Below, in pieces: positions 2,406 to 31,167 of a stretch of DNA of 32,002 nucleotides; position 1 is the first letter of the stretch; every line of letters starts with the position of its first letter. The notes below the pieces were generated by a model. The model searched no databases and was not told where the DNA came from. It saw only the letters and a list, made by a program, of their open reading frames with translations. This stretch comes from Chloroflexota bacterium (GTDB lineage Bacteria > Chloroflexota > Limnocylindria > Limnocylindrales > CSP1-4): the NCBI GenBank assembly GCA_003169655.1, contig PNAZ01000058.1, forward strand, positions 43,587 through 75,588, read 5' to 3'. The position numbers and the translations under genes are program-made.

Positions 2406-4517
2406 TTAGCTGACGGCAACCGGAGGCGGACTCGCTCCGATCGAGGCAAGGGTCTTGGCAGATGCCTGGCCCTTGCTGGACGGCGCCATGACGGGTGTCC
2501 CAACTGCGCGGTCCTCCGGTTCGTGTCGAGGTCCGCGAGCATACTCGAGCAGAGCCCGTCTGAGAAGGTCCTCGGTCTGACCGCTGGCCAGGCTCATCAA
2601 TCGGGCGACATCGTCGCGGACTGTTGTGGGGGCTTCGCTGGCAGCCGCCCGAAGGACCTTCGGGTTCTCGGTCGGCTGGACCTGCTCGGAGGCGTAGAAC
2701 AGCTCCTCGTGGAGCTTCTCGCCGGGACGCAGCCCGACGATCTCGATCGGCTGGCTCTCGGGATCCCGGCCGGCGAGGCGGACCAGGTCGTGGGCGAGAT
2801 CCATGATCTTGACCGGCTCGCCCATGTCCAGGACGAACAGGTCGCCGGACCGGCCCAATGCCGAGGCGTCGAGGATCAGCCAGGCTGCCTCCGGGATGGT
2901 CATGAAGAAGCGGGTCATCGCCGGATCCGTGATCGTCAGCGGCTCGCCGTTCTCGAGCTGCTCCTGGAAGATCGGCACGACGCTGCCGTTTGAGCCGAGG
3001 ACGTTTCCGAAGCGGACAGAGACGTAGGCCCGACCGGTTCGGCGCGCGGTGTCGGCGACGAGCATCTCGGCCAATCGCTTGCTGGCGCCCATCACGCTTG
3101 TCGGCCGGACGGCCTTGTCGGTCGACACCAGGACGAACCGTTCGACTCCCGCCCGGGCGGCGGCGTCAAGGACGGCCATGGTGCCGCTCACGTTGACGAA
3201 CATCGCATCGGACGGATGCGACTCCATCATCGGGACGTGCTTGTACGCCGCGGCGTGGAAGATCACCGACGGGACTTCCGCCGAGATCAGCTGGTCCATC
3301 GACTCGCGATTGGTGATGTTGGCAAGCTGGATCTGGAGCTCGCCGTGGCCCTTGCCGTGGTCCTTGCGGGCTTCGAGCTCCCGCTGCAGGAGGTAGAGCG
3401 GGCTCTCGGCCCGGTCGACCAGGATCAAGCGGCTGGGTCCGAGGGCGAAGACCTGGCGGGCCAGCTCCGAGCCGATCGAGCCGGCGGCGCCGGTGATCAT
3501 CACGACCCGGTCCTGGACGATCTCGCTGACGCCGGCGACGTGGTCGGTCACGATCGGGCGGCGGAGGAGGTCTTCGACCCGGATTCGGCGCATTCGATAG
3601 GCATCGACGGTGCCGTCCAAGAGATCAGTCAGGGGCGGCACCGTCCGGACCTCGAGACCGAGGGCCAGGGCCTCATCGACGATCGGTCGAACGGTCGCAC
3701 CGGGCGCGCTGGGCATCGTGATCAGGAGGGTCCGGGCGCCAGTCAGGTCGGCGATCTTGGCCAGCTCGTCGCGGCCGCCGTAGACCCGCAGGCCGGCCAC
3801 GATATTGCCGGCGAGCGAGCGATCGTCATCGAGGAAGCCGACCGGGACGATCCCCGCATCGGGGTTCCGCTCGGCGGAGCGGGCCATCAGGACGCCAGTC
3901 CGGCCGGCGCCGTAGAGCAGGGTCAGGCGCCTGGCCGTGTTCAGGTTCGCGCCTGAGTGGGGCGCCCAGTCATAGGCCGCCCGGATCGCGAACCGGGAAC
4001 CGCCCAGGAGGGCGATGCTCAGGAGCATCTCGGCGGGCCAGAACGACCGCGGGAACCCGGCCGGGACGACGGGTCCGGCAACGGCGCTCAGGGTGTAGAA
4101 CACGACGACTGTCGCGACGGTCCCGATGAAGACCGCCGAGACGATCCGGATGACCTCCGGGATGCTCGCGAACCGCCACCCCCGGCTGTACAGCCCGAGG
4201 CGCAGGTTGACGATCGTGCGCACGGCCAGGAGGAGCCCGAGGACCGGCAGGAAGAGGCCAGCCAGCTCGAACCCGATGAAGCGATCGTAGCGGATCGCCA
4301 GGGCGGCATACGCCGCCACGATGGTGCCCAGCAGGTCGATCGCCAGGAGCTCTCGAGCCCGGAGTCGACGGGCGATCCGGGCAATGCCGGCCTCCACATG
4401 GAGGGCAGACGACGGCCCATGCGGGCGATGGGGTGAGGCGCGGAAGGCGCCCGCGACCCTGGGAGGGATGTGTACCGATCGGCGAGTTGTCACGACAAAA
4501 CCCCCGGGTACCGCCAT
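2406..4517 (-). CDS. Polysaccharide biosynthesis nucleotide-sugar epimerase/dehydratase, CapD/WbpM/FlaA1-type (membrane domain plus SDR 4,6-dehydratase)
   Basis: 703 aa: N-terminal TM segments, LLYGAGRTGVLMARS nucleotide-binding region, ITGAAGSIGSELARQV Rossmann motif, VIFHAAAYKHVPMMESHPSDAMFVN, SDR active-site region, LRPGEKLHEELFY. Confidence 0.9.
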   Translation of the reverse strand: MAVPGGFVVTTRRSVHIPPRVAGAFRASPHRPHGPSSALHVEAGIARIARRLRARELLAIDLLGTIVAAYAALAIRYDRFIGFELAGLFLPVLGLLLAVRTIVNLRLGLYSRGWRFASIPEVIRIVSAVFIGTVATVVVFYTLSAVAGPVVPAGFPRSFWPAEMLLSIALLGGSRFAIRAAYDWAPHSGANLNTARRLTLLYGAGRTGVLMARSAERNPDAGIVPVGFLDDDRSLAGNIVAGLRVYGGRDELAKIADLTGARTLLITMPSAPGATVRPIVDEALALGLEVRTVPPLTDLLDGTVDAYRMRRIRVEDLLRRPIVTDHVAGVSEIVQDRVVMITGAAGSIGSELARQVFALGPSRLILVDRAESPLYLLQRELEARKDHGKGHGELQIQLANITNRESMDQLISAEVPSVIFHAAAYKHVPMMESHPSDAMFVNVSGTMAVLDAAARAGVERFVLVSTDKAVRPTSVMGASKRLAEMLVADTARRTGRAYVSVRFGNVLGSNGSVVPIFQEQLENGEPLTITDPAMTRFFMTIPEAAWLILDASALGRSGDLFVLDMGEPVKIMDLAHDLVRLAGRDPESQPIEIVGLRPGEKLHEELFYASEQVQPTENPKVLRAAASEAPTTVRDDVARLMSLASGQTEDLLRRALLEYARGPRHEPEDRAVGTPVMAPSSKGQASAKTLASIGASPPPVAVS

Positions 4518-4842: not shown

Positions 4843-6033
4843 CTAGCGTCGGGCGGGAGTGAGGAGTTCGCCCAATGCCCCGACGACCCGGTCAAGGTCG
4901 ACGTCGGCCATTCCCGGCCAGATCGGCAGGGAGATCACCCGCTCAAACTCTCGGCTGGCGATGGGTAAGGCTCGTGGCGTCGTCTCCGGTCGAGACCGGT
5001 AATACGGGTGGAGGTGGAGCGGAATGAAGTGCACGCTCGCCCCGATTCCTCGTGCCTGGAGGCCGTCCATGACCGCCGCCCGGTCGATTCTCAAGCGCTC
5101 GAGCCGGAGTCGGACAACATACAGATGCCAGGCGTGGGACTCGTCGGGAGCGTCAGCCGGGAGATCGAGCAGGTCGTCGAACCCGGATCCGAGGAAACGC
5201 CGGCGGTAGCCGGCGGCAAGCTCGCGTCGCGCGGCAAGGAGCTCCTCGGCTCGACTCAGCTGGGCCAGGCCGAGAGCCGCCGCCAGGTCGGTCATGTTGT
5301 ATTTGAAGCCGGCGTCCTCGATCTCGTACGACCAGCTGCCGCCGGCCGCATACCGGTTCCAGGCATGGCGGCTGATCCCATGGAGGCCCATCAGGCGGGC
5401 CCGGTCGGCCAGTGCGTCGTCGTCGGTCACGAGCATCCCGCCCTCGCCGGTGGTGATCGTCTTCGTCGCGTAGAACGAGAACGCGCCGGCGCGCCCGATC
5501 GTGCCTGCGAACCGCCCGCCGAGCTCGGCGATCCGGCTCGGGAAAGCGTGGGCCGTATCTTCGACAACCGGAATCCCGCGGCGGTCGAGGCGATCCACGA
5601 GCTCGCCGATCGCCATCGGCCGGCCACCGAAGTGAACGGCGACGACCGCCTTCGTCCGCGGCGTGATGGCCTCCTCGATCGTTTCCGGGGTGGCGTTGAG
5701 GGTCGCGGCGTCGACATCAACCAGGACCGGCACCGCATCGCGATAGACGACCACCTCGGCACTCGCCGCGAAGGTCCAGGTGGGCACGATGACCTCGTCG
5801 CCTGGCCCGACCCCGAGCCCCTCGAGCGCCAGGTGGAGGGCGGCCGTGGCCGAGTTGAACGCCAGCGCGTGGCGGCTCCCGACGGTCTCAGCGAAGCGCG
5901 CTTCGAACTCCTTGGTCCGGGGTCCGGTCGTCAGCCAGCCAGAGTCCAGGACATCGAGGACCGCCGCCCGCTCGAGGGCGGTGATCGACGGTCGGGCGAA
6001 CGGCAGGAATTCGAGCGACGCTTCAGCCTTCAT
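4843..6033 (-). CDS. DegT/DnrJ/EryC1/StrS family PLP-dependent sugar aminotransferase
   Basis: 396 aa: SGWLTTGPRTKEFEARFAETVGSRHALAFNSATAALHLAL, GDEVIVPTWTFAA, VEDTAHAF, FSFYATKTITTGEGGMLVTDD (catalytic Lys region). Confidence 0.92.
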   Translation of the reverse strand: MKAEASLEFLPFARPSITALERAAVLDVLDSGWLTTGPRTKEFEARFAETVGSRHALAFNSATAALHLALEGLGVGPGDEVIVPTWTFAASAEVVVYRDAVPVLVDVDAATLNATPETIEEAITPRTKAVVAVHFGGRPMAIGELVDRLDRRGIPVVEDTAHAFPSRIAELGGRFAGTIGRAGAFSFYATKTITTGEGGMLVTDDDALADRARLMGLHGISRHAWNRYAAGGSWSYEIEDAGFKYNMTDLAAALGLAQLSRAEELLAARRELAAGYRRRFLGSGFDDLLDLPADAPDESHAWHLYVVRLRLERLRIDRAAVMDGLQARGIGASVHFIPLHLHPYYRSRPETTPRALPIASREFERVISLPIWPGMADVDLDRVVGALGELLTPARR

Positions 6034-6836: not shown

Positions 6837-8870
6837 TCAGCGGCGCACTGCGTTCGCCGGCACACCGACGGCGGTGCTCGAGTTGAGGCGATCGACGATC
6901 GTCTTGAAATCCACGGTCGACCGCCGCGAGGGGACGCTCCGGATGAGCCGTTCGTGGAGCAGCCCCGTGGACAGAACGCCGACGAGAGCCATGTTGTCGG
7001 TATTCGAAAACTGCTTGCCGGCCGGCCAGTCCTGGACCTTGCGCCAGAGCTGGCCGACTGCCGCCGGGTTGAAGACCCCCGCCTCGCTCACGGCGCTCTC
7101 GCTGATCACCTCAGCGACCCAGTCGACCGGGTTCGGCCCAGTGAATGACAATGCGTCCGGCGCCCGGAAGGGCTGCTTGGAGCGACGAATGATGTCGGCC
7201 GGCACGAGCCCTGCCGCCGCGCGCTTGAGGATGTGCTTCTCGTCCAGCCCGCGGAGCTTGAACGCTGGCGACAGGGAGTTCGCCAACGCCACGACGTTGA
7301 TGTCCAGGAACGGGAACCTGCCCTCGACCGAGTGGGCCATCAGCATCCGGTCGCCCTGCGATGAGAGCAGGTAGCCCGACAGCAGGGTGCGCACCTCGAG
7401 GTACTGGTCCTGGGCCAGGAACGACCAGGACTCGAAGGCCGGCGGGAGTGAGGCGAGCAGGCGCCCGACGACGTCGACCTGGGCTGCCCGTTCGTGCACC
7501 TCGGCGACGAACAGGCGCTGGAGGGCGGCCGCTGATTGCCAGCGGATCTGGTGGGCAAACCCGGCCTCGGCCCACGTGGCCCGATCGCGCCCGAAGAACT
7601 CCCGGGCCATCGCCTGCTGGGCCGTGGGCGACCGGGCGAGGTACGGGTAGAGCCGTTCGAGCAATCGCGGCCGAAGCTTCGATCCGGGTTGCCGGCCCCA
7701 GAACCGGCGCACCTTGCCTTCGCGGAAGATGTCGTAGCCCGCGAACATCTCGTCGGCGCCCTCGCCGGTGAGGACGACCTTGATGCCGGTCTCGTGGACC
7801 AGTCGCGACAGCAGGAAGAGCGGTGCTGCTGCCGTGCGCAGGAGCGGGCGCTCGGCGTGGGCGACCACGTCGGGAAAGACATCGGCGATATCCCGACGGC
7901 TGACCGTGATCTCGTGATGGTCGCTTTCGATGAGCGCGGCCACCGATCGTTGGAACGCTGTCTCGTCGTACTCGGCATCTTCGAACCGGATCGAGAACGT
8001 GTTGAACTTGTCGCCCTTGACCCGCCGCCCGAGCGCTGCGACGAGCGAGCTGTCAAGCCCGCCCGAGAGGTACGACCCGACAGGCACGTCGGCGCGCAGC
8101 ATCCGCAGCCGGACTGCGTCCTCGAGCGCGGAGCGGACTCGCTCGGCCGCACCCTCGATCGACTCCTGCGATGCTGCCTGTGGCGCGGGATAGCTCGGCG
8201 TCCAGTAGGCCCGGTCCGTGGTCGTCTCCCGAGAGATCGTCCGAACGTGACCCGGCTCGAGCTCGGTGATCCCTTCGAAGACCGCCTGCGGGGCGACGCT
8301 GGTCCAGAAGGTGAATGTCTCGGCCAGGCCGACCGGGTCGAGCCGGCGCGGGATCGAAGGGTCGCCGGCGAAGATCGCCTTGACCTCGCTCGCGAACCAC
8401 AGCCGCCCGCCGTGGGTGCACAGGAACAGGGGTCGAACGCCCAGCCGGTCACGGGCCAGGACGAGCGTGGCCGTATCCGAGTTCCAGAGTGCCAGGGCAA
8501 ACTGGCCGTTGAACCGGGCAAAGGCGTCGTCCGCCCATTGCTCGTAGGCGTGGACGATGACTTCGGTGTCGCTGGCGGTCCGGAACTGATGCCCCAGCTG
8601 GACGAGCTCCGCCCGAAGCTCGACGTAGTTGTAGATCTCGCCGTTGAACACGATCCACAGCGAGCCCGATTCGTTGCATATCGGCTGCTGGCCCGTCGCC
8701 AGGTCGATGATCGAGAGGCGGGCCATGGCCAGTCCCGCGGTCCGATCGCGATACAGGCCGAACTCATCCGGCCCGCGATGGCGGATCGCAGCGATCATCG
8801 CCGTCAGGTCTTCACGCGTCGGTGGGCCAACCCCATCGCCCAACGCGATCGACCCTGCAATTCCGCACAC
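6837..8870 (-). CDS. Asparagine synthase (glutamine-hydrolysing)-like amidotransferase
   Basis: 677 aa: MCGIAGSIALG (N-terminal Cys nucleophile), IRHRGPDEFG, FNGEIYNYVELR, VPVGSYLSGGLDSSLVAAL (ATP-PPase motif), VLTGEGADEMFAGY. Confidence 0.93.
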   Translation of the reverse strand: MCGIAGSIALGDGVGPPTREDLTAMIAAIRHRGPDEFGLYRDRTAGLAMARLSIIDLATGQQPICNESGSLWIVFNGEIYNYVELRAELVQLGHQFRTASDTEVIVHAYEQWADDAFARFNGQFALALWNSDTATLVLARDRLGVRPLFLCTHGGRLWFASEVKAIFAGDPSIPRRLDPVGLAETFTFWTSVAPQAVFEGITELEPGHVRTISRETTTDRAYWTPSYPAPQAASQESIEGAAERVRSALEDAVRLRMLRADVPVGSYLSGGLDSSLVAALGRRVKGDKFNTFSIRFEDAEYDETAFQRSVAALIESDHHEITVSRRDIADVFPDVVAHAERPLLRTAAAPLFLLSRLVHETGIKVVLTGEGADEMFAGYDIFREGKVRRFWGRQPGSKLRPRLLERLYPYLARSPTAQQAMAREFFGRDRATWAEAGFAHQIRWQSAAALQRLFVAEVHERAAQVDVVGRLLASLPPAFESWSFLAQDQYLEVRTLLSGYLLSSQGDRMLMAHSVEGRFPFLDINVVALANSLSPAFKLRGLDEKHILKRAAAGLVPADIIRRSKQPFRAPDALSFTGPNPVDWVAEVISESAVSEAGVFNPAAVGQLWRKVQDWPAGKQFSNTDNMALVGVLSTGLLHERLIRSVPSRRSTVDFKTIVDRLNSSTAVGVPANAVRR

Positions 8871-8872
8871 AG

Positions 8873-9547
8873 CTAGTCTTCCGAGCCAGCGTCGGCGATC
8901 GCCGGTCGTTCCACGCCGGCCGCCGGTCGGCGTTCAAAGATGAAGACCCAGCGGATTCCGAGGAGGCGTCCGAGCGATCCGTCCGCGGCCCGAAGGACCG
9001 CGCCCGGCAGCTGGCTGTAGAGCACGGATGGCAGGATCTGGTGCCGGAATCGATGGACGAGGTCAAACCCCGCCCGGTCGGCGATCCGAAGATGGTCCCG
9101 GGCTCGGCTCCAGTGCTCACCCCACAGGTTTGGCAGGATAAAGATGAACCGGCCACCTGCTGGCAGGGCCGCATGGACGGATTCGTAGGTCTCCTCGACG
9201 AGCTCGAGGTCAGGCGTGATCAGGACCGAGATCGACTGGGCCAGGACGTTCGTGTAGTGCCGATCGATGCCACTCACCAGGTCGGTGGCATCCATGATCC
9301 TGGCCTGGAGTCCCCGCGACAGCATGAAGTCCACGAGGAAGGGCTGGACGTCGGACGGGGTCACATCCAGTCCCCTCGCAGCCAGGAGCTCGGAGAGCTG
9401 GCCGCAGCCGGCGCCGATTTCGAGGATCGGACCCGGCCGGAAGTAGGGCACCAGGGTCGGGATGAATAGCGCGTCCTTGGCGCGTTGACGCCGCGTCGTC
9501 GCAAGCATCGTCGGTAGTACGCCGGGAACGTAGTGAAATTCGGTCAT
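8873..9547 (-). CDS. Class I SAM-dependent methyltransferase
   Basis: 224 aa: GPILEIGAGCGQLSELLAARGLDVTPSDVQ motif I/II. Confidence 0.8.
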   Translation of the reverse strand: MTEFHYVPGVLPTMLATTRRQRAKDALFIPTLVPYFRPGPILEIGAGCGQLSELLAARGLDVTPSDVQPFLVDFMLSRGLQARIMDATDLVSGIDRHYTNVLAQSISVLITPDLELVEETYESVHAALPAGGRFIFILPNLWGEHWSRARDHLRIADRAGFDLVHRFRHQILPSVLYSQLPGAVLRAADGSLGRLLGIRWVFIFERRPAAGVERPAIADAGSED

Positions 9548-9573: not shown

Positions 9574-10701
9574 TTAGAGGTTCACAGGTCCGTCGCCATC
9601 GCCCCGATTGAGGTAGAACCTGGTCAGGTTGCTTCCTAACGGTCCCAATCGCTCGGCTAGGCTGGGTGATGCCGCGAATAGAAAGTTCGACGGCCCGCTC
9701 AGAAAGCCATTCCGCTTGAGCGCGGCACCGAGCGGCCGGAAGGTCTGGTTGGTCACGATCAGGTCGACGCCCTGGTGCTGCAGCCGGTCGACCGCCGCCT
9801 TGACAAGGGCGGCCTCATAGCCAGGCACAGCGAGCAGGTCGACAATCGAACCAAGTTTGAGATCACCGAAGTACTTGTCGTCGCTCCGCTGGGTGGCCAG
9901 GCAGACTGCCCAGCCGCACGGTCGACCTTCATCCTCGATCGCGACCCTGAGGAATGGGCTGCCCTTTGAATCGTACAACTGAGCCAACAGTGCCCCGTCC
10001 CGGACGGCACCGAACGCGAAGGTACCCCGGGCGGCTCCCCAGACGGAATCTGCGCAGCCTTCAAACGAGCTCACCTCGTTCACCACAACTCTCGTCCGCT
10101 GACGGGTCAGGCCCGCTCGATAGCGTTGCAGCCCCCGGATGCCGAGGGCGCCGAGCCCGCTCGCTGCGGCCACATCCGCGGCGATGCGCCGGGACTTCGA
10201 GGTCCGAAGAGGTCCAACCTGGCGGAGGAACCGGGCGGGATGCTCCACCCGGAAGTGGAACGGGACAGTGGCAAATTGGAATCGGGCGCCCTTCAGCAGG
10301 CGCGCAATCGCATGGTCGTAGCCACCAATCCCAAGACCATAGATCAACGGTTGGCCGCCAAGTGCGTGGCGGAGCAGCCGCGGCCCGATCAATGCGAAGC
10401 GCTTGTCGATCGTCCCCTCGGACAGCGCCTGCTGGAAGAAGCCGATCGAGGTGACAACGTCATTGATCATGAACTCCTGGTGCTTGAGCGTGTACCCGCC
10501 ATGCACTCCCTGGCCATCGACGGCCAGGAACAGCTCCTCGTGGATGCCCGCGCCCGGGACCCGTGCGGAGCCGACATTGGTTTCTCGGAGCAGGCTGCGC
10601 ATCCCGAACGCGACGGTGACACCAGCGGCATGCAATCGAGCATTGAAGGCCTGGACCGCCGGAATGTGCGTGGCTTCGTAGGGGACAATCTCGAGGGTCA
10701 T
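9574..10701 (-). CDS. GNAT-like/FemAB-like putative acyltransferase of a polysaccharide cluster
   Basis: 375 aa, MTLEIVPYEATHIPAVQAFNARL...LFLAVDGQGVHGGYTLKHQEF; GNAT-like N-terminus and operon position. Family call is tentative. Confidence 0.5.
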   Translation of the reverse strand: MTLEIVPYEATHIPAVQAFNARLHAAGVTVAFGMRSLLRETNVGSARVPGAGIHEELFLAVDGQGVHGGYTLKHQEFMINDVVTSIGFFQQALSEGTIDKRFALIGPRLLRHALGGQPLIYGLGIGGYDHAIARLLKGARFQFATVPFHFRVEHPARFLRQVGPLRTSKSRRIAADVAAASGLGALGIRGLQRYRAGLTRQRTRVVVNEVSSFEGCADSVWGAARGTFAFGAVRDGALLAQLYDSKGSPFLRVAIEDEGRPCGWAVCLATQRSDDKYFGDLKLGSIVDLLAVPGYEAALVKAAVDRLQHQGVDLIVTNQTFRPLGAALKRNGFLSGPSNFLFAASPSLAERLGPLGSNLTRFYLNRGDGDGPVNL

Positions 10702-10716: not shown

Positions 10717-11691
10717 CTAGCTCGGACCGATGGTGAGCTTGCTCATCAGCCAGCGCCGTTCGAGGCCTTGACGCTGCCGGTCTGAGATCACGGTCGGCCC
10801 CCGCTGTTGGGCCAGGAAGTCGAGCAGTGTGGTGACCGGCACGAACCAACCGTTCTTGCCGGCCAGGCGCTCCATAAGCGACTGGAAGCGCGGATTGATG
10901 TGGCCGTCGTCGTTGAAGCCCGAAGCGAAGTGGGTGTACATGATCGAAGCCCCGCCGCGAGCCTCCAGGCGGTCCATGTTCGCCTCCGTGAGGCAGCGAT
11001 TGAAGGCCTCCACGTTCCGTCCCTCGGACGACGCAAACCAGTGGTTCACGTAGGGCCGCTCGGGGTCGTGGTAGGGCATCATGGGGCAGGCCGCGAGCGT
11101 GTCAAGTTCCTTGAAGGTGAAGTTCCGAACGTAGCGCACCTTCTCCTTGCAGATATCGCCCCAAAACAACGGATCCCCTTCGCAGTGGCCCCGGAATCGC
11201 CCGTTGCCCCTGAAACGGGTGAGGAGGTTGTAGGCCAGGCGATTGATTCCTGTCACGCGGTCGGCCCCCCAATAGATCGACTCGCCGCAGGCCAGGTGAT
11301 TGGCCATCGAGAGCGGGTAGTGGCCATACAAGTCATTGAACCGTTCGATCGCCGCGATCACCCGTTCACGCGGTGAGGTTACGAACGTGGCGCCGTGGTA
11401 GCCGATCTCAAAGCCCTTGGCCTGGAGGCCCAGGGTCCAGGCCAGGTATTCCGGGTCTGCGCAGGTCGACCCGCTGAAGTCCGGCGACCCCTCCCCCCTC
11501 AGAGGCCAGACCGATTTCGTTGTGCGCAACCCAAGGCCGTCGAGGACGTCGTAGACCGGCCTGACCAGCTCGAGCGTAGCGCTGTCGGTGTCATCGAAGA
11601 TCGTGAAGGCGAAGTCTCTGCCATCCGGCCACTGGATCCGCGGACGCTCTGCCGCGGACGAGCCAATCCCAACCCGACCAGCCGATCTCAC
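10717..11691 (-). CDS. Polysaccharide deacetylase-like protein
   Basis: WPDGRDFAFTIFDDTDSATLELVRPVYDVLDGLGLRTTKSVWPL...GFEIGYHGATF. The ORF runs to 11892 but its N-terminal ~65 aa look non-native and overlap the flippase; the GTG at 11691 is my estimate of the start. Confidence 0.7.
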   Translation of the reverse strand: MRSAGRVGIGSSAAERPRIQWPDGRDFAFTIFDDTDSATLELVRPVYDVLDGLGLRTTKSVWPLRGEGSPDFSGSTCADPEYLAWTLGLQAKGFEIGYHGATFVTSPRERVIAAIERFNDLYGHYPLSMANHLACGESIYWGADRVTGINRLAYNLLTRFRGNGRFRGHCEGDPLFWGDICKEKVRYVRNFTFKELDTLAACPMMPYHDPERPYVNHWFASSEGRNVEAFNRCLTEANMDRLEARGGASIMYTHFASGFNDDGHINPRFQSLMERLAGKNGWFVPVTTLLDFLAQQRGPTVISDRQRQGLERRWLMSKLTIGPS

Positions 11692-11830
11692 CGGATCATC
11701 GAGCCTCGTGGGCAGAGCCGAGCCGGAGGTCGTCCGGCCCCGTCGAGATCGACGGCAATGTGTGCTACTCCCTCTCCCTCGTCCGGCATCATCCCATGTC
11801 TGGAGCTGCTCGGGCACCCTCCGATCCGGT

Positions 11831-13147
11831 TCATTCGGGACGCCAGGCCCGCGACCGATGGCTCGTGATCGCACGCCACGATGTGAGGCCATAGGCGATG
11901 TAGGTCAGGCAGCCCGCCACGCTGAAGATGGCGACGGCGAGCACCGGCGACGCATGGATCATGACGGAGATGAAGGCGGCGGTCCCTACGAAAACGAGTC
12001 GCAGAACCTCGCGCACGAGATGGAGGTCCTGGCGCTCGAGCACGTCGAGCGTGCCGCCCGTCGGGCTCGTCACGAGCTGGAGGTAGAACATCGGGGCCAG
12101 GATGGCCACGTACAGTCCTGCGTCGCGCCAGGCCTCGCCGAAGATGAGCCCGGCAAGGATCGGCGCGAGGATCGCCAGCAGCAGGAATGGGCCCGCAGCC
12201 AGGAGGGCGAGGACCCGGGTGGTCCTTCCGAACATGACCCGCATCTCCGACGGCTGCTCACGAGCGAGCCGCGCGGTTTCCGCCACGAAGACTTGCGAGA
12301 CTGCCGCGGCCACGAGCGTTACCGGCAAGGCGCCGATTCGGACGGCCAGGGCGAACTGCCCGCCCACGGCCGCACCGTAGATTCCCACGAGCAGCAGCAG
12401 TGGCGCCTGCTCGCCGAGCGTGTTCATCAGGGCTGATCCACTCGAAAAGATCGGGAATCTTTGGTACCGCCGGGCGGCGTACCTGATGCCTGCCCAGGTG
12501 ACGGCTCGAAATGCCGGTGCGTGGGTGCGCCAGGCAACCCGGGCAAGTCGGATGAATCCGGCCTGGTTGCCGGCGACTGAGCCGAGGAGCATGCCGACCG
12601 GGCCAAGGCGGATCACCCCAAGGGCGACCTGGACCACGACGAGCGTGGCGCTCTGGGTCAAGCGGTTGATCCCGATATCGGTGAACCGCTTGGTCCTGAT
12701 CGCCCAGCCCGTGAGGGCCAGCACGATCCCGGCCCCGAGTTGACCGACGGCAATCAGGACGGCCCACTGGGCGACCGTCGGAGCTCCGAGCAGGGTCAGG
12801 AGCCAGGGGCCCCAAAGCCACAGGGCAACGGCGGCGATCAGGCTCGTGCCGATCGCGACGAGGAGGCATAGACCAAGGACGTTCGCCGCGGCGACGTCGG
12901 ATTCAGGGAGGGGGATTGCCCATTCGTAGCGCAGGCAGGTGACCACGATGAGGACCGACAGGACCGAGTTCGCCACCGAGTACGAGCCGACGTCAGACGG
13001 TGTATAGAGCCTGGTGATGATCGGCGCGCTGATCACGACGATGGCCTGGCCGATCGTCGCCGCACCGACGAGGGTCACGACCCCCTGCTTGAGCTCGCCT
13101 TGGGGCAGCATGCGGCGCCAGAGGTCAGGGATCCGCATGAACGGCAT
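11831..13147 (-). CDS. Wzx-like oligosaccharide flippase / MATE-like polysaccharide export protein
   Basis: 438 aa polytopic: KQGVVTLVGAATIGQAIVVISAPIITRLYTPSDVGSYSVANSVLSVLIVVTCLRYEWAIPLPESD. Confidence 0.88.
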   Translation of the reverse strand: MPFMRIPDLWRRMLPQGELKQGVVTLVGAATIGQAIVVISAPIITRLYTPSDVGSYSVANSVLSVLIVVTCLRYEWAIPLPESDVAAANVLGLCLLVAIGTSLIAAVALWLWGPWLLTLLGAPTVAQWAVLIAVGQLGAGIVLALTGWAIRTKRFTDIGINRLTQSATLVVVQVALGVIRLGPVGMLLGSVAGNQAGFIRLARVAWRTHAPAFRAVTWAGIRYAARRYQRFPIFSSGSALMNTLGEQAPLLLLVGIYGAAVGGQFALAVRIGALPVTLVAAAVSQVFVAETARLAREQPSEMRVMFGRTTRVLALLAAGPFLLLAILAPILAGLIFGEAWRDAGLYVAILAPMFYLQLVTSPTGGTLDVLERQDLHLVREVLRLVFVGTAAFISVMIHASPVLAVAIFSVAGCLTYIAYGLTSWRAITSHRSRAWRPE

Positions 13148-13344
13148 TGTGGCGCACGGTGGCAGGCACCGCGAACCATTACGAAAGGGCTGGCAAGCGG
13201 CCGACTCTCAGGTATCTTGTGCCACCGCTGCCACGACTGGGATCGTAGGGCGGCCGTTTGGCGTCGACTATGCTGTCAGTTCGATTGACTCGTGCGGAGG
13301 GCGACCTCAGGGTTGCCGCGGCCGCGCTGACTTCGAGGGCGGGA

Positions 13345-14868
13345 ATGCTGTTACAGGACGACTTTGAAGGCTGGGTTGAGCGTGACGCCGACCGGCTGGC
13401 GCTCGTGTGCGGCCCGGAACGCTATACGTATGGCGACGTTCACGGGCTGGCCCAGGCCGTCGCAGCGACGCTCCGGGAGGGAGGCATCGTGCGCGGCGAC
13501 CGGGTCGCGCTCTTTCTCGACAACGGCGTGGAGCTGGTCGCCGGGGTGCTGGCCAGCCTGACCCTTGGAGCCGTGTTCATGCCGATCAATCCATCGACGA
13601 AGGAGGACAAGCTCGGCTACATGCTCAGGGACGCCCGGGCGAGCGCACTATTGACCCACGATTCGCTCCGTTCGGTTTGGGATCCAGCGGTCACGTCGAG
13701 CCCGAGCGTGCGATCTGTGCTCGTCGCGGGCCAGGCTGAATGGCCGAGCGGTAACCAGCCGGCGATCCTGCCCTGGCCTCGCGATGGAGTCGCTGCGGCC
13801 GCACCGGACACGATTGACCAGGACCTGGCTGCGATCATCTACACGTCGGGCTCGACCGGCCTGCCCAAGGGCGTCATGCTCAGCCACCTCAACATGGTCA
13901 GCGCGGCTCGATCAGTCAGCACCTACCTGGGGCTGCGCGGCACTGACGTCATCATGTGCGCGTTGCCACTGTCCTTCGACTACGGGCTGTACCAGGTCTT
14001 GATGGCGTTCCGGCTGGGCGCCTGCGTGGTGCTTGAACGCAACTTCTCGTTCCCGGTTGAAGTGCTCAATTCGATGGTCAGGCAGCAGGTGACCGTCTTT
14101 CCCGGCGTCCCGACGATGTTCTCGATGCTGATGGCCTACGGCAACCTGACCACGTACGATCTCGCCTCCCTACGCATGATCACCAACACGGCGGCGGCCC
14201 TCTCGGAGACCCACATCCGCCGCTTGCGCGAGCTCTTTCCGCAGGCCCAGCTGTTCTCCATGTACGGCCTGACCGAGTGCAAACGGGTGACCTACCTGCC
14301 GCCCGAGCAGCTTGACATCCGGCCGACCAGCGTGGGCCGAGGGATGCCCAACGAGGAGGTCTGGCTGGTGGACGACGAGGGGCGACGCCTGCCCAACGGC
14401 GCCACCGGTGAGCTGGTGATCCGGGGCAGCAACGTGATGCGCGGCTACTGGGAAAAGCCCGAGGAGACAGCTGCCCGCCTGAAGCCGGGTCCAATCCCGG
14501 GCGAGATGGTCCTCTACTCTGGTGATCTCTTCCGTACCGACTCCGACGGATGGCTGTATTTTGTGGCGCGTCGCGATGACATCATCAAGAGTCGCGGCGA
14601 GAAGGTTAGCCCTCGGGAAGTGGAGAACGCGATCTCCTCCCTCGAAGGTGTGTATGAGGTGGCGGTGATCGGTATCCCGGACGACGTGCTGGGACAGGCA
14701 ATCAAGGCGTTTGTCACCCTCACGCCCGGCGCACAGCTCACCGAGCGCGAGGTGATCCGCCATTGCCTGGCGCACCTGGAGAGCTTCATGGCGCCGAAAT
14801 ACGTCGAGTTTGTCGAGTCCCTGCCCAAGACCGGGACCGGCAAGATCAAGAAGACCGGCCTCGCCTGA
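13345..14868 (+). CDS. AMP-forming acyl-CoA/acyl-ACP ligase
   Basis: YTSGSTGLPKGVMLSHLN (P-loop), SMYGLTECKRVTYLPPE, YSGDLFRTDSDGWLYFVARRDDIIKSRGEKVSPREVE, LPKTGTGKIKKTGLA. Start moved to the ATG at 13345 (MLLQDDFEGW); the ORF track extends to 13258. Confidence 0.9.
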   Translation: MLLQDDFEGWVERDADRLALVCGPERYTYGDVHGLAQAVAATLREGGIVRGDRVALFLDNGVELVAGVLASLTLGAVFMPINPSTKEDKLGYMLRDARASALLTHDSLRSVWDPAVTSSPSVRSVLVAGQAEWPSGNQPAILPWPRDGVAAAAPDTIDQDLAAIIYTSGSTGLPKGVMLSHLNMVSAARSVSTYLGLRGTDVIMCALPLSFDYGLYQVLMAFRLGACVVLERNFSFPVEVLNSMVRQQVTVFPGVPTMFSMLMAYGNLTTYDLASLRMITNTAAALSETHIRRLRELFPQAQLFSMYGLTECKRVTYLPPEQLDIRPTSVGRGMPNEEVWLVDDEGRRLPNGATGELVIRGSNVMRGYWEKPEETAARLKPGPIPGEMVLYSGDLFRTDSDGWLYFVARRDDIIKSRGEKVSPREVENAISSLEGVYEVAVIGIPDDVLGQAIKAFVTLTPGAQLTEREVIRHCLAHLESFMAPKYVEFVESLPKTGTGKIKKTGLA

Positions 14869-14898
14869 GCGGGGGACCTGCGGAGGAATCAACGGCGA

Positions 14899-15150
14899 AT
14901 GCGGGACTACAAAGCCGATCTGCGCAAGTTCATCGACGACAACTACATCATTGGCCTCAACGGGCCTGCCTTCGCGGATGCCGACTCATTCATGGATCGG
15001 CGGATCATCGACTCCACGGGATTCCTGGAGCTGGTCATGTTCCTCGAGGAGACGTGGGGCGTCGTCGTCGCCGATGACGAGATGGTCCCCGAGAACCTCG
15101 ATAGCCTCGACCAGCTTCAGGCCTACCTGACCAGCAAGCTCGGCGCGTGA
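14899..15150 (+). CDS. Acyl carrier protein (phosphopantetheine-binding)
   Basis: 83 aa MRDYKADLRKFIDDNYIIGLNGPAFADADSFMDRRIIDSTGFLELVMFLEETWGVVVADDEMVPENLDSLDQLQAYL; ACP-like helix pattern with I-DSTGF-ELV at the expected DS site. Confidence 0.85.
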   Translation: MRDYKADLRKFIDDNYIIGLNGPAFADADSFMDRRIIDSTGFLELVMFLEETWGVVVADDEMVPENLDSLDQLQAYLTSKLGA

Positions 15151-16166
15151 GCGGCGCGTCCGAACGGATGGCGATGCCCGCAGCCGCGCCCCTGGAGCCG
15201 CAGGTCCTCGAGCTGGACGTCGCCGCCGAGGTCGAGCGCATCTGCGCCTGGATGGTGCAGGAAGTCTCTTCAACGCTGCACCGGCGAGGGGTCGTTGTCG
15301 CCATGTCGGGCGGAGTGGACAGCTCGGTCTGCGCCGCACTCGCGGTGCGGGCCCTTGGCCCCCGGAAGGTCTACGGGCTGCTGCTCCCCGAACGGGATTC
15401 CAAGACGGCCAGCTCCGACCTCGGTCGGGAGGTCGCCGAGTACCTGGGCATGTCTTACGAGCTGATCGACATCTCGCCGACGCTCCAGGCAATTGGCTGC
15501 TACCGCCTGCGCGACGACGCAATCCGGGTGGTGTTCCCGGACTACGCCGAGGATTGGAAATGCAAGGTCGCGATCGCCGGCGGCGCGACAGGCGGGATCA
15601 ACTTCTTCAAGCTGATCGTCGAGGCACCAGACGGTCGCCGGCAGGAGGCGCGTTTACCCCTCCGTGAATACCTCCAGGTCGTGGCCGCAACAAGCTTCAA
15701 GCAGCGGGTCCGCAAGACCCTCGAGTACTACCACGCTGACCGCCTGAACTTTGCGGTCATCGGCACGCCTAACCGCCTGGAATACGACCAGGGATTCTTC
15801 GTCAAGAATGGTGATGGCGCTGCCGACCTGAAGCCCATCGCACATCTGTTCAAGACGCAGGTCTATGCCCTGGCGAACTACCTCGGCTTGCCCGCGGACG
15901 TGTGCGCCGCCCTGCCGACCACTGACACCTACAGCCTGGTCCAGGGCCAGGAGGAGTTCTACTTCGCTCTCCCGTACGACCAGATGGACCTTGCCCTGTG
16001 GGCCCACAACCACGGCCGATCGGCGAGCGAGCTTGCTGTCGCATTGGGGATGACCGAGGAGCACGCTCAGATCGTCTTCACCGACATCGAGGCCAAGCGG
16101 CGAACGACCCACTACCAGCACGCGCGCCCGCTGCTGGTTGAACCAGTGACCGAAGTCAACAGCTGA
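15147..16166 (+). CDS. Stand-alone NAD synthase (NadE)-like N-type ATP pyrophosphatase / amide synthetase
   Basis: GVVVAMSGGVDSSVCAALAVRALG, FAVIGTPNRLEYDQGFFVKNGDGAADLKPIAHLFKTQVYALANYLGLPADV; no glutaminase domain. GTG start overlaps the ACP stop codon (GTGA). Confidence 0.85.
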   Translation: MSGASERMAMPAAAPLEPQVLELDVAAEVERICAWMVQEVSSTLHRRGVVVAMSGGVDSSVCAALAVRALGPRKVYGLLLPERDSKTASSDLGREVAEYLGMSYELIDISPTLQAIGCYRLRDDAIRVVFPDYAEDWKCKVAIAGGATGGINFFKLIVEAPDGRRQEARLPLREYLQVVAATSFKQRVRKTLEYYHADRLNFAVIGTPNRLEYDQGFFVKNGDGAADLKPIAHLFKTQVYALANYLGLPADVCAALPTTDTYSLVQGQEEFYFALPYDQMDLALWAHNHGRSASELAVALGMTEEHAQIVFTDIEAKRRTTHYQHARPLLVEPVTEVNS

Positions 16167-16168
16167 GC

Positions 16169-17125
16169 ATGGCCAGCCAGCCGGCACCGCGGCCCGTGGA
16201 GTCCGCGCAGCTCGGCGAGGATGATCTCGCCCTGTGGCAGGCGCTGACAGTCCAGCTGGAGCAGGGCCTTGATCGCCTCCCTGACAAGCCGGAAGAGACG
16301 GCCGAGGCAACGATCCGGGTGCTATGGCAGCTCGCAGCGGGCGAACCAATGTCCGTCCAGCGGGCAGCAAGCTGGCCCCTGCCAGCGTCGAGCGTCGAGG
16401 CCCGCGAACGGCTGGGTCGCCTGGTTCGCGAGCGCCTCGCGGGAGTGCCGCTCGCCCATCTCACCCAGCGCCAGACGTTCATGGACGTCGAGATGCTTGC
16501 GGGCCCCGAGGCGCTGATCCCGCGGAGGGAGACGGAGCTGTTGGGTGGCGCGGCTGTTGCACTCCTGCGTCGCCTGGCCGAGGCCAACGCGGACGTCATC
16601 GTCGTGGACGCCTGTACCGGCTCAGGAAACCTGGCGGCGGTGCTGGCACTATCCGAATCCCGGGCGAAGGTCTACGCGTCGGACCTGTCCAGCGAGGCGG
16701 TGACCCTGGCCCGGCGAAACATGGCCCACCTGGGCGTCGAGAAGCGTGTGACGCTACGCGTCGGCGACCTGCTCGAGCCGTTCGACACGGACGAGCTGCG
16801 CGGACGGGTGGACCTGCTCACCTGCAACCCACCGTATATCTCGACCGGACGGATGGCGGCAATGCCCGACGAGATCGTTGGGCATGAACCCGCCCTCGCC
16901 TTTGACGGCGGACCGCTCGGGATCCGGATCCTCCAGCGGCTGATCAGCGAAGCCCCTCGCCTGCTCCGACCCGGTGGTTGGCTGGCTTTCGAGGTCGGCC
17001 TCGGTCAGGGTCCATCAGTCGAGCGTCGGCTGCTCGGGTCGGGAGATTACGGCGACGTCGAGCCGGTGGCGGACGCAGCTGGGCAGACCCGCGCCCTGCT
17101 AGCCCGCCGGCGACAGGACCCGTAG
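16169..17125 (+). CDS. PrmC/HemK-family N5-glutamine methyltransferase-like protein
   Basis: 318 aa: GVPLAHLTQRQTFMDVEMLAGPEALIPRRETELL, VVDACTGSGNLAAVLALSE, DLLTCNPPYISTGRM (NPPY), ALAFDGGPLGIRILQRLISEAPRLLRPGGWLAFEVGLGQG. Begins 2 nt after the upstream stop. Confidence 0.88.
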   Translation: MASQPAPRPVESAQLGEDDLALWQALTVQLEQGLDRLPDKPEETAEATIRVLWQLAAGEPMSVQRAASWPLPASSVEARERLGRLVRERLAGVPLAHLTQRQTFMDVEMLAGPEALIPRRETELLGGAAVALLRRLAEANADVIVVDACTGSGNLAAVLALSESRAKVYASDLSSEAVTLARRNMAHLGVEKRVTLRVGDLLEPFDTDELRGRVDLLTCNPPYISTGRMAAMPDEIVGHEPALAFDGGPLGIRILQRLISEAPRLLRPGGWLAFEVGLGQGPSVERRLLGSGDYGDVEPVADAAGQTRALLARRRQDP

Positions 17126-18054: not shown

Positions 18055-18918
18055 GTGACACGACTACCGGGGAAGATCAGCGAGCGAGTCTACGGGGACT
18101 TCCTGATGTCCTCGCGCCTCGCCGTGTACCGGGCGCTGCTGGAGACGGCCCTCGAGGCAGGCTACAAGGTGGTCTCGATCGAGGGCTTCTGGGCATTGAT
18201 CAGGGGCAGCATCGTTGACCCGGCTAGCCGCTACATGGTCCTTCGCAACGACATCGATACTGGTCCGAAGACCGCCCGGGCGATGTGGCGGATCGAGCGC
18301 TCGCTGGGGATTGTGAGCTCCTACTTCTTCCGGCTTTCCAGCCTGGACCTGGCCCTGATGGCTGACATCGGCAGCGCCGGTGGCGAGGCCAGCTATCACT
18401 ACGAGGAGCTCGCCACGGTCGCCAAGGGACGGCACCTTCGGACCCCAGCCGAGGCGCTCAGATATCTGCCCGAGGCCCAGGACCTCTTTCGCCTCAACCT
18501 CGACCGACTCCGCGTGTCGAGCGGCCAGCCAATCCGGATCGTCGCCTCACACGGCGATTTCGTGAACCGCAAGCTCGGGCTCACGAACTGGTTGATCCTC
18601 GTAGACCAGCCCTTCCGGGCCGAGGTCGGAATCGAGCTCGAGACGTACGATGCGGCCTTCATGGATCACGTCACCAGCCGCCATGCGGATCTCACCAACC
18701 CGCCGTATTGGACCCCAGCCGACCCCCTGTTGGCCATCGAGCGGGGCGAACCCGTGATCTACGTCCTCGTCCATCCCCGGGGCTGGCAGGTGGAACGCGG
18801 CCTCAACGCGCGGGATGATCTGGTCCGCGGCTGGCAGAGCCTGTGGTATGCGCTCCCGGGTCGGCGGCGCAGACGCGGTTCAAACGCATCGGCGGCGGCC
18901 AAGGTCGGGCGCCAGTGA
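18055..18918 (+). CDS. Polysaccharide deacetylase-like protein
   Basis: GTG start at 18055, in frame with the track ORF 16978-18918 whose 5' half overlaps other genes. YRALLETALEAGYKVVSIEGFWALIRG...SRYMVLRNDIDTGPKTA...ASYHYEELATVA; resembles the LRHDVD deacetylase-like family. Confidence 0.72.
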   Translation: MTRLPGKISERVYGDFLMSSRLAVYRALLETALEAGYKVVSIEGFWALIRGSIVDPASRYMVLRNDIDTGPKTARAMWRIERSLGIVSSYFFRLSSLDLALMADIGSAGGEASYHYEELATVAKGRHLRTPAEALRYLPEAQDLFRLNLDRLRVSSGQPIRIVASHGDFVNRKLGLTNWLILVDQPFRAEVGIELETYDAAFMDHVTSRHADLTNPPYWTPADPLLAIERGEPVIYVLVHPRGWQVERGLNARDDLVRGWQSLWYALPGRRRRRGSNASAAAKVGRQ

Positions 18919-20328: not shown

Positions 20329-21288
20329 CTACCAGCTGTTGCCGCCCCCGTCGACCATCGGGCTGTTGATGATCGGGGGTCCAGATGTCGTCACGTGCAT
20401 GTTCCTGACGATGCCGGCAGGGCCCTCTGAGTCGAACGAGGAGTAGGAGACCCCGCTGATCGTCCAGCCTTCGATGTCGACTGCTGTCGCGTCGAGGCGG
20501 CCAACGAAGGCCCAGCGGCCGCCCTTGACCGTCCAGCGCAAGGCCGTCACTCCGTCCGCCTGGGGCGCGTGTTCGAGCTGCAAACCATTGACCGTAGGCG
20601 AGGTCCCGGTGTTACCGACGTCCCAGTCGTCGAAGGTCAGGTCGCTGGCGCGATGGATCCCATCCGAGGAAACGTACGCCGCCCAGGCCTGCTGGCCGTT
20701 TGTCGTCGGTGCGGTCGTGCCGCGCACCGTGAAGCCGTTGAAGGCCATATGGCTGGCCCAGGCGGTGCTGATCAGGCCGGTCTGGCCGATCGTGTAGTTC
20801 GTGATCTGGAACGGGCCCTGAAATGTAATGTGCGAGGTGTAGCCCGACCAGCCCGGGTACAAGAGACCCTCCTGGGTCGTGCCGCCGGTGTCGTCGAAGA
20901 CCACCGTGCCCCCCGCCGCCGGTCGGATCGTGAGCGGCCGGGCGGTGCGGTCGATGTCAATCGACAGATGCCAACCCTGATAGGTGCCCGGCGTCATCTC
21001 GATCACGTCGATCGACATGTCCTTCATCAGCTCCAGGAACGCGGCCTGGCTGCCGCCGAGCGGGAAGGCGGCGATCTTCTCGCCGGAGATCGCCGGGGTC
21101 GGCGTCGGGGTTGGGACGGGGGATCTGGCCGGCGCTGCCTCCGGGGTCGGGTTGGAAAGCAGCGCGAAGCCGATCAGGGCCAGAACAGCCGGAGCCAGCC
21201 AGATCGCCCGCCGGTTGCTACCAGAGCTCGGGGACGACTGGCCGGGACCGGCTGATTCAGGCGAGGATTCAGGGGCGACGGTCGGATT
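20329..21288 (-). CDS. Beta-helix paralog 1: TM + short PT linker + conserved ~235 aa domain (5' end lacks a canonical start)
   Basis: Own translation upstream of the track start (21027) continues in frame: NPTVAPESSPESAGPGQSSPSSGSNRRAIWLAPAVLALIGFALLSNPTPEAAPARSPVPTPTPTPAISGEKIAAFPLGGSQAAFLELMKDMSIDVIEMTPGTYQGWH..., back to a TAG at 21289-21291. Ends SPMVDGGGNSW. Confidence 0.7.
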   Translation of the reverse strand, partial: NPTVAPESSPESAGPGQSSPSSGSNRRAIWLAPAVLALIGFALLSNPTPEAAPARSPVPTPTPTPAISGEKIAAFPLGGSQAAFLELMKDMSIDVIEMTPGTYQGWHLSIDIDRTARPLTIRPAAGGTVVFDDTGGTTQEGLLYPGWSGYTSHITFQGPFQITNYTIGQTGLISTAWASHMAFNGFTVRGTTAPTTNGQQAWAAYVSSDGIHRASDLTFDDWDVGNTGTSPTVNGLQLEHAPQADGVTALRWTVKGGRWAFVGRLDATAVDIEGWTISGVSYSSFDSEGPAGIVRNMHVTTSGPPIINSPMVDGGGNSW

Positions 21289-22934: not shown

Positions 22935-23069
22935 TTGGTCGCTCCTCTTCCACGGGACAAGTGCCCCCGCAGCGTAGGAGTGCCAATCGGTAATCAGACC
23001 CGTGACCAAGGGGCCAATCCGGCCCGGAATCCGTGGCCCCATGGTCATGGGCGTGCAGTCGGGTGGGGT

Positions 23070-23093
23070 AAATGGTGCCAGTTGGCACCATTT
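23070..23093. promoter_or_regulatory. 24-bp dyad AAATGGTGCCA-GT-TGGCACCATTT in a divergent intergenic region
   Basis: Perfect 11-bp arms with 2-bp spacer between divergently transcribed paralog 2 (22934) and GT4 (about 23255). Confidence 0.6.
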
Positions 23094-23254
23094 GGACACT
23101 ATTTGTGTGGTCGTTCACCCGTGCGAACGGGCTCAATCATCCCCGGAGATCGAGCCGGGACGCCGCGCGACGACCGACTGTATAGTCCGGCGACGGGCGC
23201 TGGGGCCAGGCGAGCCCGGCCCCCTGCAATCCCCGGAATCGAGGAGCGATCCGT

Positions 23255-30859: not shown

Positions 30860-31167
30860 TGTTCGCTCCTCTTTCACGGGGGGCACGTGTCCCGGAACGG
30901 TTTGCGCCGCTACCACCAACGCCGACCGGCATTGGCTGACCAGTCAAGGTCGAGTTAGAGACGGATGGTCACAGCGGGGCTAGGCGGGGAATCGCGGGGG
31001 TCCCGGGGGCACGAGCGGGGGCCGGCATCTGGGGGTATGTCCGTCCTCAGCCGTCTTCTGAGAGTGACACCGTTTCCCCGACTCCCGGGCCGACGTGGCG
31101 GTGCTGGGCAGAAGTGTACCCAACCTGACCAGACCGTGCCGGAACCGCCTTTTCCGCACGTCGCAAG

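Follow-up and report, generated by a model that had tools for sequence, protein, structure and literature searches.

A recurrent NadE-like, AsnB, carrier-protein and ligase gene set with an optional PrmC-like methyltransferase, and its possible role in surface-polysaccharide tailoring

Results and discussion

In a 32,002-nucleotide stretch of DNA from a Chloroflexota bacterium (hereafter the window), we identified a gene set that very probably encodes a carrier-protein tailoring module. The recurrent core of this set is an AsnB-type amidotransferase, an acyl carrier protein (ACP), an AMP-forming ligase and a NadE-like ATP-pyrophosphatase (ATP-PPase); a PrmC-like methyltransferase is an optional add-on. 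We propose tentatively, at somewhat less than even likelihood, that a member of the NadE family has been co-opted to make amides or amidines of carrier-bound acyl groups, and that it characterises a modular pathway disseminated horizontally among several bacterial phyla. Interchangeable ligases would set the starter acid, a dedicated PrmC-type methylase would act on amino-acid starters only, and the product would belong to an unrecognised class of surface-sugar substituents. If this holds, surface glycans would gain a new substituent and the NadE fold a new function, and the names NAD(+) synthase, asparagine synthase and PrmC may be wrong for many genes that belong to a single carrier-protein pathway.

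Organisation of the locus

Four genes on the forward strand form one unit: the TIGR03098-like ligase (13345..14868), the acyl/peptidyl carrier protein with a DST phosphopantetheine site (14899..15150), the NadE-like protein of the NF002048/PRK00876 subfamily (15147..16166) and the PrmC/HemK-family methyltransferase (16169..17125). The junctions are, in this order, 30 nt, a 4-nt GTGA overlap and 2 nt, and the recomputed coordinates agree with the preliminary description of the unit. In-frame alternatives to the ligase start lie upstream at 13258 and 13270, and homologues align from the Met at 13345. The NadE-like start at 15147 is predicted; in-frame ATG codons also occur at 15168 and 15174, homologues begin at about residue 15-20, and the overlap with the ACP gene would vanish if either of these codons were the start.

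A 197-nt intergenic region (13148..13344) separates the cassette from a divergent operon on the reverse strand. This operon contains a Wzx-type flippase (Polysacc_synt_3, 11831..13147), a double-GNAT acyltransferase presumed to transfer the ACP-bound group (9574..10701) and an AsnB-type glutamine amidotransferase/amide synthetase with the glutaminase Cys2 and an SGGLDS motif (6837..8870). The preliminary description rightly placed the four forward genes in the cassette but overlooked this AsnB, its recurrent partner. A class I SAM methyltransferase-like protein encoded between AsnB and the GNAT (8873..9547) is possibly a further pathway member. The reverse strand also carries genes for a DegT-family sugar aminotransferase (4843..6033), a candidate source of the amino-sugar acceptor, and a FlaA1/WbpM-type nucleotide-sugar dehydratase (Polysacc_synt_2, 2406..4517), a candidate source of a 4-keto sugar. 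Pfam gave no match for the ACP, the GNAT (9574-10701), the methyltransferase-like protein (8873-9547), 10717-11892 or 18106-18918, and an Rfam search of the window gave no match. Mis-binning of the contig was considered; since the tetranucleotide compositions of window and genome are alike (r = 0.98; 0.935 for the cassette alone), it is not obvious and finds no support in composition.

With regard to family membership, the NadE-like protein scored 480.2 bits against the NF002048/PRK00876 NAD(+) synthase subfamily (curated cutoff 313), and the PrmC-like protein 173.6 bits against the HemK family TIGR00536 (cutoff 115.5). Three scores lay below the respective cutoffs: PrmC-like against the PrmC equivalog TIGR03534 (187.9 bits, cutoff 199.1), the ligase against the exosortase A-associated ligase TIGR03098 (450.6 bits, cutoff 592.35) and AsnB against the XrtA amidotransferase model TIGR03108 (423.9 bits, cutoff 816.9). 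The ACP matched its family with 40 bits, and its closest solved relatives are 2my5/2my6 (peptidyl carrier protein).

Conservation and distribution

The NadE-like protein has at least 580 confirmed relatives. Among well-covered loci with an NF002048-type NadE, 55 of 56 had ACP and ligase beside it and 51 of 56 had AsnB; in an evenly sampled set, ligase and ACP were each adjacent in 14/14 and AsnB in 13/14. The gene set, with ligase, ACP and usually AsnB beside NadE in nearly every locus examined, is thus far beyond chance. About 3-4% of the Chloroflexota and Pseudomonadota in the sample carry the core, among them Sinorhizobium meliloti (on pSymB). The co-occurrence anticipated earlier therefore holds across phyla for ligase, ACP and AsnB with the NadE-like protein, but not for PrmC, which is absent from many loci in the neighbourhood count and was rejected as an invariant core member. 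In two Thiomonas genomes AsnB lies outside the cassette locus (in one of them within the same contig, at a distance of about 12 kb), and ORFs upstream of the ligase at the two Thiomonas loci had no Pfam match. Steroidobacter agaridevorans possesses two cassettes, arranged AsnB-ACP-LIG(S235)-NadE and AsnB-LIG(D235)-ACP-PrmC. Full-text literature searches returned nothing on the cassette, which is apparently widespread but undescribed. Its presence in S. meliloti and Steroidobacter makes genetic testing possible now.

Proposed pathway

The cassette, AsnB and the double-GNAT may together form an acyl-tailoring pathway for a surface polysaccharide, a scheme whose full chain of steps we rate just short of an even chance. 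The ligase would adenylate a small acid, probably amino-dicarboxylic, and load it onto the ACP. AsnB, which has its own glutaminase, and the NadE-like protein, both ammonia-using ATP-pyrophosphatases, would then amidate free carboxyls of the carrier-bound group. In the amino-acid-type branch only, the PrmC-like protein would methylate this group with SAM; its association with that branch is observed, whereas the methylated atom is a prediction. Finally, the double-GNAT would pass the ACP-bound acyl group on to the amine of an amino sugar, for which the dehydratase and the aminotransferase are the presumed source. This step would precede flipping by Wzx and the polymerisation of a putative Wzx/Wzy-type polysaccharide.

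The NadE-like enzyme

The model of the NadE-like protein has a NadE fold (2e18, TMt 0.84) with a three-strand insert at residues 138-169. Both SGGxDS and GTxNxxE are retained in 91/91 NadE-like proteins, and the DS of the phosphopantetheine site in 82/82 ACPs; it is these conserved ATP-pyrophosphatase residues, together with the genomic context, that suggest amidation. The protein resembles ammonia-dependent NadE in fold and ATP-pyrophosphatase motifs, but differs in its low identity (~20-25%), the insert, the company of ACP and ligase, and the existence of a separate housekeeping NadE.

The presence of two amide-forming enzymes in one set speaks against the pathway as proposed. With AsnB already able to turn carboxylates into amides, the additional ATP-PPase suggests that a further, distinct reaction takes place: the NadE-like enzyme could convert the AsnB-made amide to an amidine, or form an amide to an amine other than ammonia, with PrmC methylating that nitrogen and the module otherwise working as above. 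Acetamidino sugars are indeed made by ATP-PPase-type amidotransferases, the insert and diverged pocket set the NadE-like protein apart from NadE, and a single NadE serves the two cassettes of S. agaridevorans. Nevertheless, in fold and catalytic residues the protein matches ammonia-dependent NadE and there is no direct sign of amidine chemistry, and we regard a product of this kind as unlikely.

The acyltransferase and the destination of the product

The GNAT model (pLDDT 71, moderate) shows a double GNAT fold, with Foldseek E-values of about 1e-9 to 1e-8 for matches to N-myristoyltransferases and a 2hv2-type entry. A phmmer search with the window GNAT found no homologue at the other cassette loci; it was detected solely, and remotely, by the profile of the neighbouring GNAT cluster (21.7 bits). 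Tandem-GNAT family genes lie near 40/91 cassette loci, and in other Chloroflexota FemAB or acyltransferase-3 genes take the place of the GNAT. The double fold and the family's position beside many cassettes bear out the early suggestion that this protein is tied to the cassette.

It seems rather improbable that the ACP-bound product is instead released as a free metabolite, or placed on a lipid or protein, and that the polysaccharide neighbourhood is coincidental. The four core genes on S. meliloti pSymB do form an operon without an adjacent glycosyltransferase, phospholipid genes are close to the Shinella p1 locus, and the window ACP weakly matches the ornithine-lipid and cispentacin ACP models. 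However, many loci sit among glycosyltransferases, polysaccharide deacetylases, sugar-phosphate transferases and EPS export genes, and in S. meliloti an overlapping tandem-GNAT and PrmC pair, 12 kb from the core, adjoins a lipopolysaccharide biosynthesis gene.

Ligase type and the PrmC-like methyltransferase

The ligase (A-domain code DYYTTTMRVK) has an Asp at the position equivalent to GrsA 235, and in an alignment with LgrA A-domains its FDYGLYQ falls on their FD motif. A pocket of this kind points to a substrate resembling an alpha-amino acid. A second carboxylate on it is suggested by the conserved Met322/Arg330 pair, so that an amino-dicarboxylic acid would be the probable substrate. An aminoacyl decoration, one of the two kinds first proposed, fits the alpha-amino-anchoring Asp of NRPS A-domains found here.

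PrmC was present in 23/32 cassettes with an Asp235 ligase versus 0/54 without, and in the even sample in 6/7 versus 0/7. Its state changes about 8 times on the NadE tree, and the coupling is therefore not one founder event. PrmC is thus an optional add-on from a dedicated clade, restricted to Asp235-type ligases. Asp235-ligase cassettes of Chloroflexota lack PrmC (the window cassette has one), which speaks against the proposed pathway.

The expected methylation of a Gln-type amide nitrogen gains from the intact NPPY of the window copy, but is weakened because roughly half of the cassette PrmCs carry Leu, Ala or Ile in place of the Asn. This frequent loss would suit a different target, whether a protein (the carrier or a release factor) or, on the acyl group, the alpha-amine or the carboxylate; moreover, as PrmC occurs only with amino-acid-type ligases, the feature that it needs may be an alpha-amino group. 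We give such targets little credence: the window copy keeps NPPY, and a second release-factor methylase is unneeded as a PrmC is already present.

Housekeeping copies

An accidental cluster of duplicated housekeeping genes (for NAD synthetase, asparagine synthetase and release-factor methylase) is extremely unlikely as an explanation and was rejected despite the database labels NAD(+) synthase and asparagine synthase, because separate housekeeping copies are present, the cassette PrmCs form their own clade, and the association with ACP and ligase is kept over several phyla. A second, full-length nadE is located at G000:C163, so the NadE-like protein is not the sole or housekeeping NadE of the genome, and a second prmC at G000:C150 lies directly 3' of prfA, a neighbour that thus belongs to the other PrmC. 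The preliminary description had considered the cassette copies being the only ones in the genome as grounds for abandoning its proposal, which these locations contradict. Furthermore, all 14 PrmC-bearing genomes tested (14/14) encoded additional members of the PrmC family as well as a NadE homologue outside the cassette, and the phylogeny called for at the outset placed the cassette PrmCs in a separate clade (support 100/99, branch length 1.07). The window AsnB is the sole protein above the asparagine-synthase cutoff in the 81%-complete genome, and could therefore also serve asparagine synthesis.

Relation to known systems

In butirosin biosynthesis (BtrI/BtrJ/BtrK/BtrH), an ACP-loaded amino acid is tailored on the carrier and then moved to a sugar amine; tailoring there is by decarboxylation and hydroxylation, whereas the proposed cassette would use amidation and methylation. 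The cassette PrmC shares family and SAM domain with the PrmC/HemK N5-glutamine methyltransferases, as well as NPPY in the window copy, but differs in its own clade, its score below the TIGR03534 cutoff and the frequent loss of the NPPY Asn. The AsnB-type amidotransferase OxyD presumably makes the malonamate starter of oxytetracycline (PMC6164072). The likeness lies in a dicarboxylic starter amidated by an AsnB-type enzyme, the difference in that OxyD feeds a polyketide synthase. We know of no NadE or PrmC in that system.

In Porphyromonas, the putative GNAT VimA has been put forward as the enzyme that moves amino acids onto sugars, and the amidotransferase WbpS of the linking-sugar pathway makes a uronamide (PMC7468200). 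A putative GNAT with a proposed role in placing an amino acid on an amino sugar and a TIGR03108-type amidotransferase are thus common features, but no ACP/ligase/NadE set is described there, and the AsnB-type enzyme amidates a uronic acid (PMC7468200). The XrtA/exosortase EPS modules (TIGR03098 ligase, TIGR03108 amidotransferase, ACP, PLP decarboxylase) share with the cassette a related ligase, an AsnB-type amidotransferase, an ACP and an EPS neighbourhood. The cassette differs in that its ligase and AsnB fall below the model cutoffs, a NadE-like protein is added, and a PrmC-like protein is present in a subset. The Met322/Arg330 pair also occurs in the second, exosortase-type-looking ligase of locus L052.

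A conserved module of at least six genes

The cassette is part of a genuine carrier-protein tailoring module, both conserved and mobile, that comprises six genes or more. The ligase (13345–14868), ACP (14899–15150), NadE-like (15147–16166) and PrmC-like (16169–17125) genes are joined by a 30-nt gap, a GTGA overlap and a 2-nt gap, just as the preliminary description had placed them, and 197 nt separate them from the start of the flippase on the opposite strand. The only soft point of this layout is the NadE-like start, where translation from either in-frame ATG (15168 or 15174) would abolish the overlap with the ACP. The four genes described as one unit do belong together, but form only part of the module: the window AsnB (6837–8870, minus strand) is the counterpart of an AsnB that recurs in related loci, and the true unit therefore spans both divergent operons.

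A scan of genome contigs confirmed at least 580 NadE-like relatives, 80 of which were kept and combined with eight Chloroflexota and three rhizobial plasmid loci into a set of 91. In this set, where contig ends cut many loci, the NadE-like gene was accompanied by the ligase in 83, the ACP in 82, AsnB in 68 and PrmC in 23. Where the flanking sequence exceeded 6.5 kb in both directions (56 loci), ligase and ACP were each found in 55, AsnB in 51 and PrmC in 13. An even sample of Pseudomonadota contained the NadE-like family in 14 of 398 genomes (centre genome not counted), beside ligase and ACP in all 14 and AsnB in 13; among sampled Chloroflexota it occurred in 9 of 301, the window genome included. 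AsnB, when not adjacent, was usually located elsewhere in the same genome. No AsnB was detected at the threshold used in one Chloroflexota genome (G249), in which another ATP-binding, HUP-domain-like gene (L029:7752-8780) overlaps the NadE-like gene and perhaps stands in for AsnB. Moreover, a FabH/KASIII-like enzyme lies beside nine cassettes (L105:4852-5904 and eight related loci), several with Ser or Asn at ligase position 235, a possible sign that the starter is extended.

The NadE-like family was absent from all 19 same-family genomes listed. Since the window copy falls in a NadE clade (support 98/98) whose other members are all Pseudomonadota, and lies separately from the remaining Chloroflexota, the cassette was most likely gained by horizontal transfer; its composition agrees with that of the genome.

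Identity of the cassette proteins

A housekeeping role for the cassette nadE and prmC was rejected. The genome carries a second full-length nadE (contig C163) and a prmC immediately downstream of prfA (contig C150), and in the maximum-likelihood tree a long branch (length 1.07, support 100/99) divides all cassette PrmCs, including the window copy, from the other paralogue and PrmC. All 14 further genomes with a cassette PrmC likewise have a non-cassette NadE homologue and other PrmC-family genes, in 13 of them with a copy above the PrmC cutoff.

With 480 bits against a cutoff of 313, the NadE-like protein clearly belongs to NF002048/PRK00876, a family that NCBI names NAD(+) synthase. Its AlphaFold model (44 sequences, pLDDT 87) has a predicted NadE fold (match 2e18, TMt 0.84), differing from NadE by an additional three-strand segment (residues 138–169). 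SGGxDS and GTxNxxE are retained in all 91 loci, and the aligned housekeeping copy has these elements, RxR and KxQV in common with it. Methanosarcina acetivorans gave the sole NF002048 match among 14 control genomes, and the family therefore extends to archaea.

The ligase most closely resembles NRPS adenylation domains and, after these, 4-coumarate and malonyl-CoA ligases, and the closest solved relative of the ACP is the peptidyl carrier protein 2my5/2my6, presumably PltL, which carries proline in pyoluteorin synthesis. The PrmC-like protein belongs to the HemK family, and its nearest solved structures are HemK. In HemK enzymes the Asn of NPPY touches the target amide. The methylation of a glutamine-like amide suggested earlier agrees with the intact NPPY of the window copy; across the cassette family, such an activity is not secured by the sequences, because 11 of 22 aligned relatives carry LPPY, APPY or IPPY.

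PrmC is coupled to the ligase type

The ten specificity positions of the ligase A-domains were read by motif alignment (window code DYYTTTMRVK). Asp235 (GrsA numbering) anchors the alpha-amino group in amino-acid-activating NRPS A-domains. This position is Asp in 32 cassettes and Ser, Ala, Gly, Asn, Cys or Thr in 54, and PrmC was present in 23 of the former versus none of the latter, a comparison whose Fisher value overstates independence as the cassettes are kin by descent. In the even sample the corresponding numbers were 6/7 and 0/7 (Fisher p = 0.005), the seventh Asp235 genome having a PrmC about 23 kb off. Five of the nine Asp235 ligases without neighbouring PrmC are from Chloroflexota whose genomes have only housekeeping-like PrmC copies; another, from Sinorhizobium meliloti, has a PrmC-like gene at 12 kb. 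Despite the kinship of the cassettes, about eight changes of PrmC state occurred on the NadE tree, and Steroidobacter agaridevorans (L208/L209) carries AsnB-ACP-LIG(S235)-NadE alongside AsnB-LIG(D235)-ACP-PrmC. Taken with the restriction of PrmC to Asp235 ligases, this means that PrmC probably acts on a feature supplied only by an amino-acid-type starter. The two S. agaridevorans cassettes share one locus with just one NadE-like gene nearby. In addition, Met322 and Arg330 are kept in nearly all cassette ligases; this pair, which also occurs in the alpha-aminoadipate-activating Lys2 code, would fit a substrate with a second carboxylate.

Putative transfer step and polysaccharide context

The protein encoded at 9574–10701 is a double-GNAT protein (AlphaFold, pLDDT 71), with N-myristoyltransferases and a 2hv2-type protein as best solved matches (E about 1e-9 to 1e-8). 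It is distantly related (21.7 bits) to a tandem-GNAT family whose members lie close to 40 of the 91 cassettes; in other Chloroflexota, FemAB or acyltransferase-3 genes occur close to NadE. In the window, dehydratase and aminotransferase genes, whose products would provide an amino sugar, follow on the same strand downstream of AsnB, GNAT and flippase. On S. meliloti pSymB (L030, L177) the core cassette is annotated as asnB, acyl carrier protein, adenylate-forming enzyme and nadE, the last of which looks wrong; 12 kb away, overlapping GNAT-type and PrmC-like genes adjoin a lipopolysaccharide biosynthesis gene.

Among known arrangements, the exosortase-A-associated set (TIGR03098, TIGR03108) comes closest, although the window ligase and AsnB score below the respective cutoffs. 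GNAT-type aminoacyl transfer onto amino sugars and a TIGR03108-related uronamide synthetase, WbpS, have both been proposed (PMC7468200); OxyD is the presumed malonamate maker (PMC6164072). Our literature search, whose coverage mostly excluded subscription papers, found no paper describing the NadE/ACP/ligase set.

Two further proteins (10717–11892 and 18106–18918) look like polysaccharide deacetylases and had no match in the Pfam search. Four paralogous ORFs (20329–21027, 21381–23099, 27741–28835 and 29297–30919), two of which were scanned against Pfam without a match, have a common C-terminal domain (FQITNFSIGQTGLISTAW... NGFTVRGTTAPTTNGQ), and three of them have Thr/Pro-rich linkers and a secreted look.
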